Source: a virus. From it: a stretch of 33,062 nucleotides of DNA. The stretch spans positions 1-33,062 of IMG/VR virus record IMGVR_UViG_3300011114_000728. One strand, written 5' to 3'. Numbering within the stretch: position 1 is the stretch's first letter; each line of letters starts with the position of its first letter. The notes below the pieces were generated by a model that searched no databases, was not told where the DNA came from, and worked only from the letters and a program-made list of their open reading frames with translations. A program made the position numbers and the translations under genes. Shown here piece by piece: positions 24,367 through 31,898 of the stretch.

Positions 24367-24774
24367 ATGATCTGCAAAACGCTACTAGAAAAAAACCGGA
24401 AGGAATCCCCTAACCAGTTCAAGAAATACTCTCGCTGCTTTTATAAGCATTTTGAGACACCTACTTCTTGCCACTGCAATAACGATAAGACCGGAATCCA
24501 AGTCGAAGTTTCAGTCGCGGAGTGGCAGGAGATAGGAAGCTGTGAGCTAGAACTGAGCGGCGAGCTTGCGGATGGAACGTGGATGCGACTGCACAACCAC
24601 GGACTACCAAGAGACATAGACGCTGTTCTGGCCCTGATCCCGAGGATGCTCATGGTCTGGGAAGCATCAAACAAAGGAGCGCTGGAACTCATGGTCGAGC
24701 GAGGCGCGAAGGCTTGGAAGGATGTGCCAGATGCCAGCGCATGGGTGGAAGAGCTAAGAGGGAACGACGCCTAA
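24367..24774 (+). CDS. hypothetical early protein
   Basis: 135 residues. The N-terminal third is basic with three cysteines (KYSRCFYKHFETPTSCHC), the middle carries IQVEVSVAEWQEIGSCELEL, and the C-terminal part is helical (DIDAVLALIPRMLMVWEA). Conserved domain not recognised. Its stop overlaps the start of the first RusA-like frame (TAATG at 24772-24776), so it is linked to that locus. Confidence 0.6.
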   Translation: MICKTLLEKNRKESPNQFKKYSRCFYKHFETPTSCHCNNDKTGIQVEVSVAEWQEIGSCELELSGELADGTWMRLHNHGLPRDIDAVLALIPRMLMVWEASNKGALELMVERGAKAWKDVPDASAWVEELRGNDA

Positions 24775-25145
24775 TGATCCCAATAATGACAGACGCAATG
24801 CGGCGCTGCATGCACCGCGAAACAACCCTTAGAAAACCAAATGCTAACCATAACACTAACGATACCGGGACGCCTGCCAAGCTGGAACAAGATACTCGGC
24901 ATGGGTCACTGGCAAAGAAACCGATTGAAACACATACAACAAGCCGAGTTCATATCCGCTTTGAGTCTGTCCGAAAACGCCTGCTCGATCCCGACAATAT
25001 TTGCGAAAAGTGGACACTCGACTGTCTCCGCTATATCGGCGTCATTCGCGGAGATGAGCCGGACAAAATTACGCTCGAAACAAGCCAACGCAAAGCCGAG
25101 AAAGGCGAAGAGGAGAGGACGGAGATAACCATTACATATCCGTAA
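24774..25145 (+). CDS. RusA-like resolvase, C-terminal-half frame, copy 1
   Basis: The frame carrying the catalytic half of a RusA-like Holliday-junction resolvase: SRVHIRFESVRKRLLDPDN with the acidic D-x-D-N site, then EKWTLDCLRYIGVIRGDEPD and a C-terminal strand RTEITITYP. The start at 24774 overlaps the upstream stop (TAATG); the first ~45 residues are low-complexity and not RusA-like. The N-terminal half of RusA (IPGRLPSWN) is encoded in the other frame of the same DNA, starting at 24841. So this frame may be translated alone or joined to that one by a -1 shift. In the region before 24877 it is not conserved between the two copies. Confidence 0.6.
   Translation: MIPIMTDAMRRCMHRETTLRKPNANHNTNDTGTPAKLEQDTRHGSLAKKPIETHTTSRVHIRFESVRKRLLDPDNICEKWTLDCLRYIGVIRGDEPDKITLETSQRKAEKGEEERTEITITYP
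24841..25128 (+). CDS. RusA-like N-terminal-half frame, overlapping, copy 1
   Basis: This frame begins LTITLTIPGRLPSWNKILGM and continues with HWQRNRLKHIQQAEFISAL, the first strand and helix of RusA-like nucleases. After about residue 42 it becomes a Ser/Thr/Ala-rich shadow of the other frame yet stays open until 25128, 17 bases short of that frame's stop. Comparing codons 24862-24876 with the second copy, all five base differences are synonymous here and change five of six residues in the other frame, so this frame is really translated. The catalytic half lies in the -1 frame. No canonical slippery heptamer is visible between 24886 and 24975. Confidence 0.6.
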   Translation: MLTITLTIPGRLPSWNKILGMGHWQRNRLKHIQQAEFISALSLSENACSIPTIFAKSGHSTVSAISASFAEMSRTKLRSKQANAKPRKAKRRGRR

Positions 25146-25183
25146 AAATCATTAGAAATTAACAAGCCAACAAAGAAACAGTT

Positions 25184-25351
25184 ATGAGCGAAGACAACGA
25201 AAGATACTGGGCAGACCAAGCTGAGAAAGGCAGAGGCGAAACAAAGCGCAGGGTGTATCGCTGCCGCGACCGCATGTGCGGCGGGGAAGACTGTGCGACT
25301 TGCTACGGCGAGCAGGCAGCAAGTGATTTTGTAAACCAAGAAGAACAATGA
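25184..25351 (+). CDS. small Cys-rich protein, copy 1
   Basis: 55 residues; the middle, YRCRDRMCGGEDCATC, holds four cysteines (27, 32, 37, 40), a likely zinc-binding knuckle, between a charged N-terminus and an acidic C-terminus. It is preceded by an A-rich leader after the RusA-like stop. Identical in both copies of the 619-bp repeat. Function unknown. Confidence 0.55.
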   Translation: MSEDNERYWADQAEKGRGETKRRVYRCRDRMCGGEDCATCYGEQAASDFVNQEEQ

Positions 25352-25482
25352 GCGAAGAACTACAAGAACGCACCGAAGCACTCCGTCGCATGGTCGAGAC
25401 GCGTGACCTAATTATTGCAGACCTGGAGCGCGAGATCCGCGAACTGAACGCGATGCTGCACGGCGTCCCTGATCCGTCGTAG
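25348..25482 (+). CDS. small coiled-coil protein, copy 1
   Basis: 44 residues, helical with heptad pattern (ELQERTEALRRMVETRDLII, then ADLEREIRELNAML) and a Pro-rich end. ATGA overlap with the Cys-rich gene. The second copy differs at two residues (Glu to His in the helix, Val to Ile near the end). Function unknown; a dimeric accessory is plausible. Confidence 0.5.
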   Translation: MSEELQERTEALRRMVETRDLIIADLEREIRELNAMLHGVPDPS

Positions 25483-25520
25483 CAATATCGCGGATAACTA
25501 CCTGCTACCTTAAGACATTT

Positions 25521-25832
25521 ATGAAAACACCAGAACAACTCCACGCCTATCAATCGACGCTCCCGCCGCTTCGCAGCTACTTCGTCGTATGGGAGCGACC
25601 TCATGGCAGCTACACCTGGACGCAACTCGGCGGCATGTTCACGGAACGCGACGCCGCCAACGAGTTTGCCAAGTTGCGTGTTGACCACAAGGAACGGCCA
25701 ATCTGCGATTGCGTGGTGACTGAGGCGCAGCTTCAACGGATGCCGACGCCGGAAGGAAGCGAGCCTTGCGCTTCGCTAGCCAGCGAAAGCGTGGCAGGCT
25801 CGATCTACTACGGGAAAGGACACGCGCGATGA
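25521..25832 (+). CDS. hypothetical protein, paralogue 1 of a two-member family
   Basis: 103 residues: SYFVVWERPHGSYTWTQLGG, then FTERDAANEFAKLRVDHKER and ICDCVV. The gene at 29909 encodes a close homologue over the whole length; the first 29 bases are identical and most other changes are conservative. This copy ends with a longer Ser/Ala insert before YYGKGHAR. The W-x-R-P-H-G-S-Y-T-W stretch looks like a small alpha-beta domain with no known name. It lies between the two repeats. Confidence 0.6.
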   Translation: MKTPEQLHAYQSTLPPLRSYFVVWERPHGSYTWTQLGGMFTERDAANEFAKLRVDHKERPICDCVVTEAQLQRMPTPEGSEPCASLASESVAGSIYYGKGHAR

Positions 25833-26224
25833 GCGACCGCGGCCCACAATACTCGGAATCAGAGAGCAAGCCCGATTTGGTGCCGCTCACAAAAGCGCAG
25901 CTCGCAATCGCGTGTAAAATTGAAGCCGATACGCCGGAGATGTGTCCGCACCTGCGCATGAAAGACGAGTGCGGGTTTTGCGCCGCCGATGAACACCGCG
26001 CTGGATTGGAGCGGCGCATTGAATGTGAAAAGATTGCTGCCGTGCAGGAGTTCATGGACGCCGTGCTCGGTGCGCTGAACCGCATGGGAATTAAGACTGA
26101 CGACTGCGACGGGGAGGACGCGCCGGAAGTCATCTTTTCGGGGTGGATATACCACCAGATCGAACACGCGCGCACGATGTCGGCTTCACCGACATCGTGC
26201 GACGCACAGGGAAATCCAAAATGA
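25829..26224 (+). CDS. hypothetical protein with Cys/His cluster
   Basis: 131 residues from ATG 25829 (ATGA overlap). The cluster C-P-H-L, E-C-G-F-C and D-E-H (about 39-55) could bind zinc; a helix around AAVQEFMDAVLGALNRMGI follows. Codons near the 3' end contain a perfect 13-bp inverted repeat, so the C-terminal residues may be constrained by nucleic-acid structure. Not recognised. Confidence 0.55.
   Translation: MSDRGPQYSESESKPDLVPLTKAQLAIACKIEADTPEMCPHLRMKDECGFCAADEHRAGLERRIECEKIAAVQEFMDAVLGALNRMGIKTDDCDGEDAPEVIFSGWIYHQIEHARTMSASPTSCDAQGNPK
26171..26201. repeat. perfect 13-bp inverted repeat
   Basis: CGCACGATGTCGG (26171-26183) and CCGACATCGTGCG (26189-26201) are exact reverse complements around CTTCA. 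No T-tract follows. It lies inside the 3' end of one gene and 20 bp before the ATG of the next. It could be an operator, a translational hairpin or a processing site. Confidence 0.75.
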
Positions 26225-26508
26225 AAATCCATCCGAACACCCACAAGGGCGCTCCGCTTCAGGACGCCATAGACGACTTTGCAGAAGCCTACGAAGCGCA
26301 AAGCAAAAGCAGCCGCGAGGCGTGGCAGATTCGTCTCTACATGGCTGACAAGCTCGGCGTGAAAGAAGAGACGATCACAGAAAAGGACGTGCATTATTTC
26401 TGCCTTCGCATGGGCGTGGTCTATCTCGCCCGCAAGATTCGCGGCATCGGCACGAGCACAGCGGAACGGCTTTGCCGGGAGGCGCAGGAGGCGCTAGGAG
26501 CAAAATGA
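26221..26508 (+). CDS. helical hypothetical protein
   Basis: 95 residues from ATG 26221: MKIHPNTHKGAPLQDAI, then helices (YEAQSKSSREAWQIRLYMAD, EEALGAK end). The middle, GVKEETITEKDVHYFCLRMG, could be a small helical DNA- or protein-binding domain. A degenerate 13-codon relative of its first residues lies at 30214. ATGA overlap with the second RusA-like frame. Not recognised. Confidence 0.55.
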   Translation: MKIHPNTHKGAPLQDAIDDFAEAYEAQSKSSREAWQIRLYMADKLGVKEETITEKDVHYFCLRMGVVYLARKIRGIGTSTAERLCREAQEALGAK

Positions 26509-26885
26509 ACCCGCACGAGATATTGCGGCGCTTCCCTAATGCCTCGAAAAGCCTGCTGGCCGCAAACGCGCAAGACTATGGGACACACGATCAGACTGAA
26601 AATACCCGGCAGACTACCAAGCTGGAACAAGATACTAGGCATGGGTCACTGGCAAAGAAACCGATTGAAACACATACAACAAGCCGAGTTCATATCCGCT
26701 TTGAGTCTGTCCGAAAACGCCTGCTCGATCCCGACAATATTTGCGAAAAGTGGACACTCGACTGTCTCCGCTATATCGGCGTCATTCGCGGAGATGAGCC
26801 GGACAAAATTACGCTCGAAACAAGCCAACGCAAAGCCGAGAAAGGCGAAGAGGAGAGGACGGAGATAACCATTACATATCCGTAA
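26505..26885 (+). CDS. RusA-like resolvase, C-terminal-half frame, copy 2
   Basis: From the ATGA overlap at 26505 this frame gives 126 residues: NPHEILRRFPNASKSLLAAN, a linker, then the same catalytic half as copy 1 (RLLDPDN, LDCLRYIGVIRGDE). I recall RusA-like phage proteins starting with a similar P-N-A-S segment, so independent translation of this frame is plausible here, unlike copy 1 whose N-terminus differs. From base 26617 the DNA is the 619-bp repeat. The RusA N-terminal half is again in the other frame. Confidence 0.65.
   Translation: MNPHEILRRFPNASKSLLAANAQDYGTHDQTENTRQTTKLEQDTRHGSLAKKPIETHTTSRVHIRFESVRKRLLDPDNICEKWTLDCLRYIGVIRGDEPDKITLETSQRKAEKGEEERTEITITYP
26578..26868 (+). CDS. 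RusA-like N-terminal-half frame, overlapping, copy 2
   Basis: Starts MGHTIRLKIPGRLPSW and is identical to copy 1 from residue 9 (Ile) of both, although the DNA for IPGRL differs at five bases, all synonymous. The only later substitution in the overlap, 26637 (A for C), is silent in both frames. The start lies wholly inside the other frame. It either supplies a separate N-terminal polypeptide or feeds a -1 frameshift into the catalytic half. Confidence 0.6.
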   Translation: MGHTIRLKIPGRLPSWNKILGMGHWQRNRLKHIQQAEFISALSLSENACSIPTIFAKSGHSTVSAISASFAEMSRTKLRSKQANAKPRKAKRRGRR

Positions 26886-26923
26886 AAATCATTAGAAATT
26901 AACAAGCCAACAAAGAAACAGTT

Positions 26924-27091
26924 ATGAGCGAAGACAACGAAAGATACTGGGCAGACCAAGCTGAGAAAGGCAGAGGCGAAACAAAGCGCAGGGTGTATCG
27001 CTGCCGCGACCGCATGTGCGGCGGGGAAGACTGTGCGACTTGCTACGGCGAGCAGGCAGCAAGTGATTTTGTAAACCAAGAAGAACAATGA
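26924..27091 (+). CDS. small Cys-rich protein, copy 2
   Basis: Identical in sequence to the 55-residue protein encoded at 25184, including the four-cysteine cluster. It lies in the second 619-bp repeat after the RusA-like stop and overlaps the coiled-coil gene by ATGA. Complete identity suggests recent duplication or ongoing gene conversion. Confidence 0.55.
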   Translation: MSEDNERYWADQAEKGRGETKRRVYRCRDRMCGGEDCATCYGEQAASDFVNQEEQ

Positions 27092-27222
27092 GCGAAGAAC
27101 TACAAGAACGCACCGAAGCACTCCGTCGCATGGTCGAGACGCGCGACCTAATTATTGCAGACCTGCACCGCGAGATCCGCGAACTGAACGCGATGCTGCA
27201 CGGCATCCCTGATCCGTCGTAG
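27088..27222 (+). CDS. small coiled-coil protein, copy 2
   Basis: 44 residues, same as the protein at 25348 except His for Glu within the helix (GAG to CAC, two changes in one codon) and Ile for Val near the C-terminus. Most differences between the repeats fall in this gene, so it diverges faster than the RusA-like part. Confidence 0.5.
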   Translation: MSEELQERTEALRRMVETRDLIIADLHREIRELNAMLHGIPDPS

Positions 27223-27269
27223 CAATATCGCGGATGATGGAAAAAGAATCGCCAATGGAAAAATTTCGC

Positions 27270-28998: not shown

Positions 28999-29912
28999 AT
29001 CAAACCATCAAAAACAAATACGCGATCTACAACGGAGACTGCATTTCGGTAATGCAAGACTTGCCAGATGCTTCAGTGCATTTCTCATTGTTCAGTCCTC
29101 CCTTCGCCGATCTATATTGCTATTCAGATTCACCTATGGATCTCGGCAACTGCAAAAACTATGACGAGTTCTTTGTCCACTTTGGATTCGTCGTTGAGCA
29201 ACTGGCTCGCATCATTAAGCCGGGCCGAAACTGCGCGGTTCACTGCATGGATATTCCAGCAATGAAAGAGCGCGATGGATTCATCGGCATCAAAGACTTC
29301 TCAGGCGACATCATCCGCCTTTTCCAAAAGCACGGCTTAATCTATCACTCCCGACACACGATCTGGAAAGACCCGCTCATCGAAGCCACGCGCACGAAGG
29401 CGCTGGGCCTAATGCACAAGCAGCTCCAGAAAGACAGCACGCGCTCGCGCGCGGGACTGCCGGACTACTTGCTCGCATTTCGCAACGCTGGCGAGAATAC
29501 GATCCCTGTGACTCATCCCGATGGGCTAGAAAGCTATGCCGGCAGCGAAGCGATGCCGCGGGCTGATGGCATCAAGCGGTCGCACAACATCTGGCGCGCA
29601 TACGCATCGCCGGTCTGGATGGACATTCGCCAAACTAACACGCTCAACGCCAAGGCCGCGCGCGAAGCCGACGACGAAAAGCATTTGTGTCCGCTACAGC
29701 TCGACGTGATCGAGCGCGCATGCGTCCTATGGAGCAACCCTGGCGAGGTAGTGTTCACGCCGTTCATGGGTGTCGGTAGCGAGGTTTATGGCGCGGTGAT
29801 GAACGGTCGCAAGGGCCTCGGCGTTGAATTGAAAACAGCTTACTACACCCAAGCCGTGAGAAATCTCGCCGCGGTCGAAAGCCACGTTGAACAAGAATTG
29901 ATCCCTGTATGA
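28986..29912 (+). CDS. DNA methyltransferase (beta-class, N4-C or N6-A)
   Basis: 308 residues. Catalytic motif IV is SPPF (37-40), preceded by the AIYNGDCISVM strand; the SAM-binding motif I region (FTPFMGVGSEVYGAVMNGRK, from about 256) comes at the C-terminus, the beta-class order. SPPF suggests N4-cytosine more than adenine methylation, but the two cannot be separated by eye. A target-recognition region would be ~100-240. It overlaps the SNF2-like gene; no restriction endonuclease is nearby, so protection of phage DNA from host restriction is the simplest role. Confidence 0.85.
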   Translation: MAILNQTIKNKYAIYNGDCISVMQDLPDASVHFSLFSPPFADLYCYSDSPMDLGNCKNYDEFFVHFGFVVEQLARIIKPGRNCAVHCMDIPAMKERDGFIGIKDFSGDIIRLFQKHGLIYHSRHTIWKDPLIEATRTKALGLMHKQLQKDSTRSRAGLPDYLLAFRNAGENTIPVTHPDGLESYAGSEAMPRADGIKRSHNIWRAYASPVWMDIRQTNTLNAKAAREADDEKHLCPLQLDVIERACVLWSNPGEVVFTPFMGVGSEVYGAVMNGRKGLGVELKTAYYTQAVRNLAAVESHVEQELIPV

Positions 29913-30217
29913 AAACACCAGAACAACTCCACGCCCATCAAGCATCACTCCCACCGCTCCGCAGTTACTTCATTGTCTGGGAACGACCTCATGGAAGCTA
30001 CACTTGGACGCAACTCGGCGACATGTTCACCGAGCGCGATAAGGCTAACGAGTTCGCCAAGAACCGCGTTGACCACAAGGAGCGACCGATCTGCGACTGT
30101 GTAGTGAGCGAGTCAAAGATGGCTAGGATGCCAGCACCAGAAGGCAGTGAGCCGGTGGCTTTGCTAGCCGAGGAGAAACGAGGCTATCTGTATTATGGAA
30201 AGGGACATGCCCGGTGA
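29909..30217 (+). CDS. hypothetical protein, paralogue 2 of a two-member family
   Basis: 102 residues, homologous over the full length to the protein at 25521 (same MKTPEQLHA start, WERPHGSYTWTQLG core and YYGKGHAR end). DNA is identical for the first 29 bases and then diverges mainly at third positions, so both copies seem to be under selection. ATGA overlap with the methyltransferase and GTGA overlap with a 13-codon remnant. Confidence 0.6.
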   Translation: MKTPEQLHAHQASLPPLRSYFIVWERPHGSYTWTQLGDMFTERDKANEFAKNRVDHKERPICDCVVSESKMARMPAPEGSEPVALLAEEKRGYLYYGKGHAR

Positions 30218-30593: not shown

Positions 30594-30796
30594 ACAACAC
30601 GAAAAATTCAGATCAACCCATCGACTTGCTGCGATCCGTTGCTAGACGACACTGCGCGCACATCAAAAAGCCTTTTGCGCTGAAAGAGATTTGCGAGCAA
30701 GTCCAAGGCAACGAATACAACGCTGAAATTATGTTACAGCACCTGCTGCTTTGGTGTTCCGATTGCATGAAGCTGCCGGGGAGGAAGCAAAAATGA
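30590..30796 (+). CDS. small helical hypothetical protein
   Basis: 68 residues from ATG 30590 (ATGA overlap). Helical, with three cysteines (RHCAHIKKPFALKEICEQVQ; LWCSDCMKL) and a basic end. Not recognised. It is directly coupled to the chimeric gene at 30793. Confidence 0.5.
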   Translation: MNNTKNSDQPIDLLRSVARRHCAHIKKPFALKEICEQVQGNEYNAEIMLQHLLLWCSDCMKLPGRKQK

Positions 30797-31038
30797 AGGC
30801 ACCTGCCTTTCAGTTTTACGCTGATGACTTCATCGGTGGCACAGTAGTCTTGACCGCCGAAGACGTTGGCGCTTACGGCATGAAAACAGTTGCCGAGGAA
30901 TCCTCGTTAACTGCCGCCGAGCAAGCCGCTCGAAAGGCACTGGTTGAGGCTCTGCTGATCTGCATCAGGTATGCCGATTCCAGCGCCGACACAGAGCAGG
31001 CTTACGCTGCGCTGGCACTTGCCGCAAAGCTGCCGTGA
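30793..31038 (+). CDS. chimeric protein with DUF1376-like N-terminus
   Basis: 81 residues. The first ~28 (MKAPAFQFYADDFIGGTVV, then TAEDVGAYG) are nearly identical to the start of the initiator-like protein at 31203, though the DNA differs at many third positions. Then the sequence changes completely to an Ala-rich helical tail (ESSLTAAEQAARKALVEALL). It therefore looks like a partial duplication fused to another small gene. Both parts are in frame, so it may be a functional decoy or regulator, or simply debris. Confidence 0.55.
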   Translation: MKAPAFQFYADDFIGGTVVLTAEDVGAYGMKTVAEESSLTAAEQAARKALVEALLICIRYADSSADTEQAYAALALAAKLP

Positions 31039-31202: not shown

Positions 31203-31898
31203 ATGAAGGCACCGGCTTTTCAATTTTACGCGGACGATTTCATCGGAGGAACGGTGGTTTTTAGCGCCGAGGACGTGGGAGCATACATGCGGCTGCTCTG
31301 CTATCAGTGGGGCAATGGCGCGATTCCCACTCGCAAGGAGCTAGTGGATAGGATAGCGGGATGCGCGGTCGGGCCGGACGTGATGGCAAAGTTTCCAGAC
31401 GGCAAGAATGCACGCATGGAGCGCGAGCGCGAAAAGCAAGCCGATTACAGGCTGCAACAATCAGCAAAAGGGAAAGCATCGGCGCAGGCTCGGTTCAACC
31501 GCGGTTCAACCGCGGTTCAACCGAGTGGGGAACCGGAGGGGCAACCGAAAGTCAACTCTCCGTCTCCGTCTCCGTCTCCTATCTCCAATACCGTTACCGA
31601 ATCCGACTCCGGAGATTCTCCACCGGCACTTTCGCCCAAAGCGGCGAAAGTCCGGCGGAAGGCGAAAACGGAAACCGATGAAGATTGGATTTCTGATTTG
31701 GAAAAAATGGACTGCTTCCGCCTTGTCTCAGTTCGTGATGAGCTTGGACTCGCGCAAACGTGGTGCGCGGCTCACTCCAGACAATGCACCCGTCAGTTCT
31801 TCAACCGCTGGCTGCTGCGATCTGTAGAGAAATCGAGAACGATTAACGCAAACGGGACAAACCTTCATTCCCAAAAATCCGAAAAATATGGCTTCTAA
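31203..31898 (+). CDS. replication initiator-like protein (DUF1376 N-terminus)
   Basis: 231 residues. The N-terminal ~70 (FQFYADDFIGGTVVFSAEDV, GAYMRLLCYQW, AIPTRKELVDRIAGC) is the DUF1376 pattern, a winged-helix-like domain found in phage replication initiators. A long charged, low-complexity linker follows (Gln/Lys/Arg, then a SPSPSPSPIS stretch), then a C-terminal helical domain (~160-215, DWISDLEKMDCFRLV, TRQFFNRWLL). The linker codons contain three 11-bp iterons. Followed by a DnaC-like loader, this is organised like lambda O-P. GAGG precedes the ATG. Confidence 0.72.
   Translation: MKAPAFQFYADDFIGGTVVFSAEDVGAYMRLLCYQWGNGAIPTRKELVDRIAGCAVGPDVMAKFPDGKNARMEREREKQADYRLQQSAKGKASAQARFNRGSTAVQPSGEPEGQPKVNSPSPSPSPISNTVTESDSGDSPPALSPKAAKVRRKAKTETDEDWISDLEKMDCFRLVSVRDELGLAQTWCAAHSRQCTRQFFNRWLLRSVEKSRTINANGTNLHSQKSEKYGF
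31491..31523. repeat. three tandem CGGTTCAACCG iterons, candidate replication origin
   Basis: CGGTTCAACCG occurs at 31491-31501, 31502-31512 and 31513-31523, perfectly tandem, and each unit is itself a palindrome (CGGTT-C-AACCG). The 11-bp period is not a multiple of three, so each copy is read in a different frame (FNRGS, STAV, VQPS); protein repetition cannot explain it. Diverged relatives (AACCGGAGG, CAACCGAAA) follow. Lambda's origin likewise consists of iterons inside gene O. A 24-bp TCTCCG-type repeat (31557-31580) and an 8-bp hairpin (31629-31650) lie downstream. Confidence 0.7.

Follow-up and report, generated by a model that had tools for sequence, protein, structure and literature searches.

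A putative split RusA-like junction resolvase encoded in two nested reading frames of a tailed-phage genome

Resolvases of the RusA family cut Holliday junctions as dimers. The RusA protein of E. coli (PDB 1q8r/2h8c; PHROG 34 and 1682) consists of one polypeptide of about 120 residues (PMC3485210). Another close known system is SPP1 gene 44, which was once annotated as two ORFs, the second of them without the N half, until resequencing merged them into one ORF (PMC3485210). The locus described here shares with RusA the catalytic Asp/Asp/Lys/Asp arrangement, a C-half fold suggested by the leading PDB matches, the order of motifs in the N half and a site near recombination genes (encoding an AAA_24 ATPase and a DUF669 protein); with the gene 44 product (G44P) it shares a RusA-like catalytic region carrying an N-terminal extension. 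It differs from RusA in that the fold is divided between overlapping frames and the catalytic chain has an extra module, and from SPP1 gene 44, a true single ORF, in that two real frames are present. Two overlapping frames at one phage locus are also known from the tail assembly chaperone genes G/GT; there, however, a slippery site makes a fusion, whereas no such conserved site exists here. The lambda spanin genes Rz and Rz1 are likewise nested in different frames and their products act in one complex, but the spanin subunits are different proteins rather than halves of one enzyme fold. In the open-access papers that we searched, we found no description of a RusA with overlapping frames or frameshifting.

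The locus and its two copies

The locus lies in a 33,062-nucleotide stretch of viral DNA (the window, analyzed over its whole length), a tailed-phage genome encoding terminase GpA and a lambda-type portal. It is present in two copies, each located 3' of the genes for an AAA_24 ATPase and a DUF669 protein with a DDIPF end, a neighborhood that we read as typical of phage recombination modules. In each copy, RKRLLDPDN...GDEPD falls within one ORF (the C frame, encoding the C chain), and a +1 ORF nested inside it (the N frame, encoding the N chain) contains IPGRLPSWN...HWQRNRLK...FISALS. The first-pass annotation had placed the RusA N half and the catalytic half in two frames (-1) over shared DNA in both copies, which our analysis confirms with one refinement: the upstream start codons belong to the C frame itself, which is therefore a complete ORF and not merely the downstream end of a shifted gene. 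The C frame is open from 24579 in copy 1 and from 26472 in copy 2, with likely ATGs at 24774 and 26505. The features are as follows:

24774..25145, + strand: copy 1 C chain ORF (123 aa), with a variable N-terminal module, a linker and the RusA catalytic half; matches RusA profiles phrog_34 and phrog_1682
24774, + strand: ATG of the copy 1 C chain (alternative start at 24786)
24841..25128, + strand: copy 1 N chain ORF (95 aa), nested in the C ORF, with the RusA N half and a basic, sequence-unconstrained tail
24862..24888, + strand: copy 1 N-frame motif IPGRLPSWN
24933..24965, + strand: copy 1 dual-constrained interval (about 11 codons), predicted to encode the end of the helix of the N half in the N frame and the first strand of the C half in the C frame
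24987..25055, + strand: copy 1 catalytic core in the C frame, bounded by the first Asp of LLDPDN and the GDE Asp; D/D/K/D invariant in 34 sequences
24877..25495, + strand: 619-bp repeated segment, found again at 26617-27235 with five differences
26496..26500, + strand: AGGAG, possible ribosome-binding site of the copy 2 C chain
26505..26885, + strand: copy 2 C chain ORF (126 aa), modeled with AlphaFold, best Foldseek PDB match 2h8c (RusA); NAS-type two-helix module at residues 1-24, predicted disordered linker at about 25-60 and RusA catalytic half at 61-126
26578..26868, + strand: copy 2 N chain ORF (96 aa; alternative ATG at 26539)
26602..26628, + strand: copy 2 N-frame motif IPGRLPSWN
26673..26705, + strand: copy 2 dual-constrained interval
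26727..26795, + strand: copy 2 C-frame catalytic core (D75, D77, K82, D97)

The 619-bp duplication carries the shared part of rusA together with two small ORFs. Upstream of it, the C-chain modules of the two copies are unrelated, each divergent module being joined at the IPGRL codons, a pattern that suggests, from sequence comparison alone, module exchange by recombination. As had been pointed out before, five differences in these codons (24867, 24870, 24871, 24873 and 24876, in the P, G, R and L codons) are silent in the N frame but change DTGTPAK to NTRQTTK in the C frame, and the sole difference between the copies from 24877 to 25403, at 24897/26637, is silent in both (CTC/CTA in N, CGG/AGG in C). 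All 15 relatives checked carry one copy of the locus each. The window contains further internal duplications, namely a related ORF pair at 25521-25832 and 29909-30217 (MKTPEQLHA...) and a stretch, MKAPAFQFYADDFIGGTV, common to the ORFs at 30751-31038 and 31203-31898, the first of which looks like a partial copy.

Relatives, register and selection on the two frames

Searches with the copy 2 C chain yielded 31 viral loci and those with a C-chain alignment 62 viral loci plus one genome locus; a scan with the N-frame pattern only retained 80 loci, and a broader C scan retained 80 of 185. Deduplication left 60 sequences, including both window copies, and 15 more divergent ones, giving 75 distinct sequences, mostly from metagenomic fragments whose hosts are mostly unknown. 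The arrangement and register are identical in every locus found, regardless of whether C-frame or N-frame queries were used, and the N motif is present in all distinct C-keyed loci that extend far enough upstream (40/40 and 15/15). The similar two-frame loci that the first-pass annotation mentioned thus exist, and its reading of a RusA-like gene with a selected N frame and an active site in the other frame is borne out over about 75 distinct sequences. The two kinds of case that would have refuted it, loss of the N frame and a close homologue in a single frame, were sought among the relatives searched, and neither was found. Cultured phage and plasmid collections queried with proteins of the window or with a sequence joined by hand gave no convincing match, the C chain of one relative (L175) gave none as a viral query, and one further scan only reproduced the pattern seen in an earlier one. 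A predicted Methanomicrobiales virus (BK063671) is a further case of the same arrangement; in its record, the N-frame ORF is the only one annotated here. The locus also occurs in two genomes of the group that includes a Verrucomicrobiaceae MAG (Verrucomicrobiota group), and a wider survey produced only two convincing matches among 388 genomes of the phylum. In two loci (L030 and L148), the catalytic half ends abruptly after DEDNLCEK and is followed by unrelated sequence.

Overlap selection tests on these homologous loci, which had been proposed with the first reading, revealed constraint in both frames: on N only upstream, on C only from RKRL onward, and on both over about 11 codons. When changes are counted on a tree, most of those in the N motif hit third positions of N codons, and most of those from RKRL onward hit third positions of C codons. 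We further compared identity with expectation by holding the residues of one frame fixed and reshuffling codons in 37 sequences below 75% identity. Upstream, N identity is in excess (z 18-40) and C identity is close to the expected value in two of the three blocks; downstream, C identity is in excess (z 19-37) and N identity stays near expectation until the last 66 bases, where a mild excess (z 4-5.5) is unexplained. Strong excess in both frames is restricted to approximately [-39,-6) relative to the RKR codon, and a smaller set agrees. Shared ancestry was not fully corrected for in this test; most control blocks, that is, those without expected constraint in the tested frame, gave z of about 0.4-2.3.

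Both frames are also kept free of stops. None of the 37 sequences has a C-frame stop in the N-coding part (16.8 expected under codon reshuffling) or an N-frame stop within codons 1-33 of the C-coding part (16.0 expected), and over 44 codons a single sequence (L326) has an N-frame stop against 20.0 expected; the third frame is almost always closed. Since the residues in these kept-open parts are mostly unconstrained, openness is what selection keeps, as expected if both frames are translated through. Selection on both frames is well supported, and the two marks of a nested gene pair, protein-level selection and separate starts and stops in both frames, are both present.

Every listed locus has start codons for both frames, with the exception of L022, whose C frame has no usable start. 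In that locus, a one-base difference in an A-run (about 1460-1510) closes the C frame upstream, and the leader MTDAMRRCMHRE then falls in the N frame; this may be a sequence error or decay. The N and C ATGs lie only 5 nt apart in L173, and vir555 has a separate Shine-Dalgarno sequence for each ORF (AAAGGAA and AGGAGG). In most loci, the N start lacks a Shine-Dalgarno sequence; in the window phage, such a sequence accompanies 6 of the 37 starts inspected and is absent at the other 31.

Features of the two predicted chains

The C chain matches the RusA profiles phrog_34 (4e-7) and phrog_1682 (about 1e-6), the former being matched by 14 of 34 C chains, and D75, D77, K82 and D97 are invariant in all 34. 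In RusA, Lys76 reportedly serves catalysis and Arg69 DNA binding, according to a title cited in PMC3485210. Neither half matched Pfam, and a PDB sequence search returned no RusA match. AlphaFold predicts an ordered segment at residues 61-126 and a disordered linker, and the Foldseek PDB list for this model is led by RusA (2h8c; prob 0.96, E 0.098), a match that is suggestive only. Upstream of the overlap, the NAS module shows a C-frame coding pattern in 23 loci (changes of 2.0, 1.6 and 6.2 at C1, C2 and C3); other C chains show a weak resemblance to a double zinc ribbon (DZR, E 0.002) or have unrelated modules. A short G....PDG.W.KP-like motif recurs at the N termini of the C chains of L073, L166, L168 and L326 and appears to be another exchangeable module.

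The N half is predicted to carry the first strand of RusA, the PSWN loop and the long helix, followed by a basic tail, and in the AlphaFold model of the N chain a helix at residues 24-48 takes in the dual-coded part. A fold search with the N chain gave no informative match, and its NCBIfam and weak PHROG matches were rejected as chance-level. In three loci (L118, L160 and L166), the N ORF extends beyond the C stop and ends in VPF, PPPF or DPPF, similar to the C-terminal tip of SSB.

The N-terminal DNA-binding region that RusA has in the same chain is not found in the C chain, which carries a module and linker, but in the N frame. In distant, single-frame RusAs of gut, Gordonia and mycobacterial phages, positions 3-41 align with the N profile and positions 63-98 with the C profile, in colinear order. 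Once its two halves are joined, the window protein matches phrog_1682 at 2.2e-9 rather than 1.4e-6, and the match now covers profile positions 30-143. In single-frame RusA, about 8-11 residues lie between the end of the helix and the strand that precedes the catalytic aspartates, whereas here the same bases encode both.

A proposed two-chain enzyme and the alternatives

The locus probably encodes a split RusA-like junction resolvase made of two nested, separately started chains, although separate initiation of the N chain in the window phage, docking and resolvase activity are inferred, in the absence of protein data or a model of the complex. The C chain would start upstream and comprise a swappable N-terminal module (NAS-type in copy 2), a flexible linker and the catalytic half with its metal-binding aspartates; the N chain would start within the C ORF and consist of the RusA N half and a basic tail. 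On docking, the N half would complete the RusA sheet and the DNA-binding face. Such a split probably arose through an indel that shifted the halves into different frames, both remaining expressed. The main argument rests on the alignment and predicted structures, without experiment: with one frame switch, a single chain could hold only the helix end or the strand, and the conservation of both points to two chains.

Among the three options of the first-pass annotation, this one, two separately started polypeptides, is favored. In a programmed -1 frameshift, ribosomes would initiate at the N ATG and slip within the overlap to yield one RusA chain, leaving the upstream C frame incidental. The passage of codon-position constraint from N to C is what such a product would show, and PRFect lists RusA/RuvC among phage genes predicted to be joined but not annotated so (PMC10885494). 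However, with about 11 codons constrained in both frames there is no sharp single switch, and the shared bases of helix end and strand do not fit a single chain; moreover, the C module upstream is under constraint, with a start of its own, and the C frame stays open upstream and the N frame downstream. We found no conserved slippery heptamer: canonical ones occur in 13 of 46 loci, scattered without a common place, and neither window copy has any, as had been noted. Without a canonical heptamer at a conserved place, frameshifting is unlikely as the main route and we hold it to be improbable, although a minor fusion product is not excluded. The third option, true overprinting, in which the N frame would be a new protein laid over an old RusA gene and unrelated to RusA, could draw on the nesting of the N frame and its own stop; yet the N frame can be aligned with the N half of RusAs encoded in one frame, and adding it gives a better RusA profile score. 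The two frames encode parts of one known fold, so overprinting of this kind was not seen, and it is very improbable.

Every catalytic residue resides in the C chain, which could thus be the enzyme on its own, with the N chain, descended from the RusA N half, acting separately as a regulator or DNA-binding protein; the very basic N tails and the three N chains with a PF tip resembling SSB tails would suit such a role. Against this, the N half is constrained over the part used in RusA, is colinear with RusA and is present in every C-half locus that extends far enough upstream. An N chain with a regulatory role is still possible, though we judge it unlikely. That a sequencing or assembly error split an ordinary rusA has a documented precedent in a RusA-like phage gene, SPP1 genes 44/45 (PMC3485210), but is refuted here by the comparative data: the register is common to the two window copies and about 75 distinct sequences from many samples, no single indel can restore both dual-coded elements, and codon-level selection tracks the two frames. 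We therefore reject it.

Extending the two-chain interpretation to the whole lineage, we lean, with somewhat less assurance, toward a widespread phage resolvase that is an obligate two-chain enzyme with its halves in different frames of the same DNA, in which about 11 codons would specify a helix of one subunit and a strand of the other, locking them together genetically, and the N-terminal module of the catalytic chain would be exchangeable. This points to an ancient enzyme fold kept working after being split between frames of the same DNA across many phages and, if true, would offer a natural system in which split-enzyme assembly, dual coding and the fixation of overlapping genes could be tested directly. 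Annotation pipelines miss or mislabel such resolvases, as in the archaeal virus record and in UniProt, where viral proteins similar to the C chain are labeled uncharacterized.
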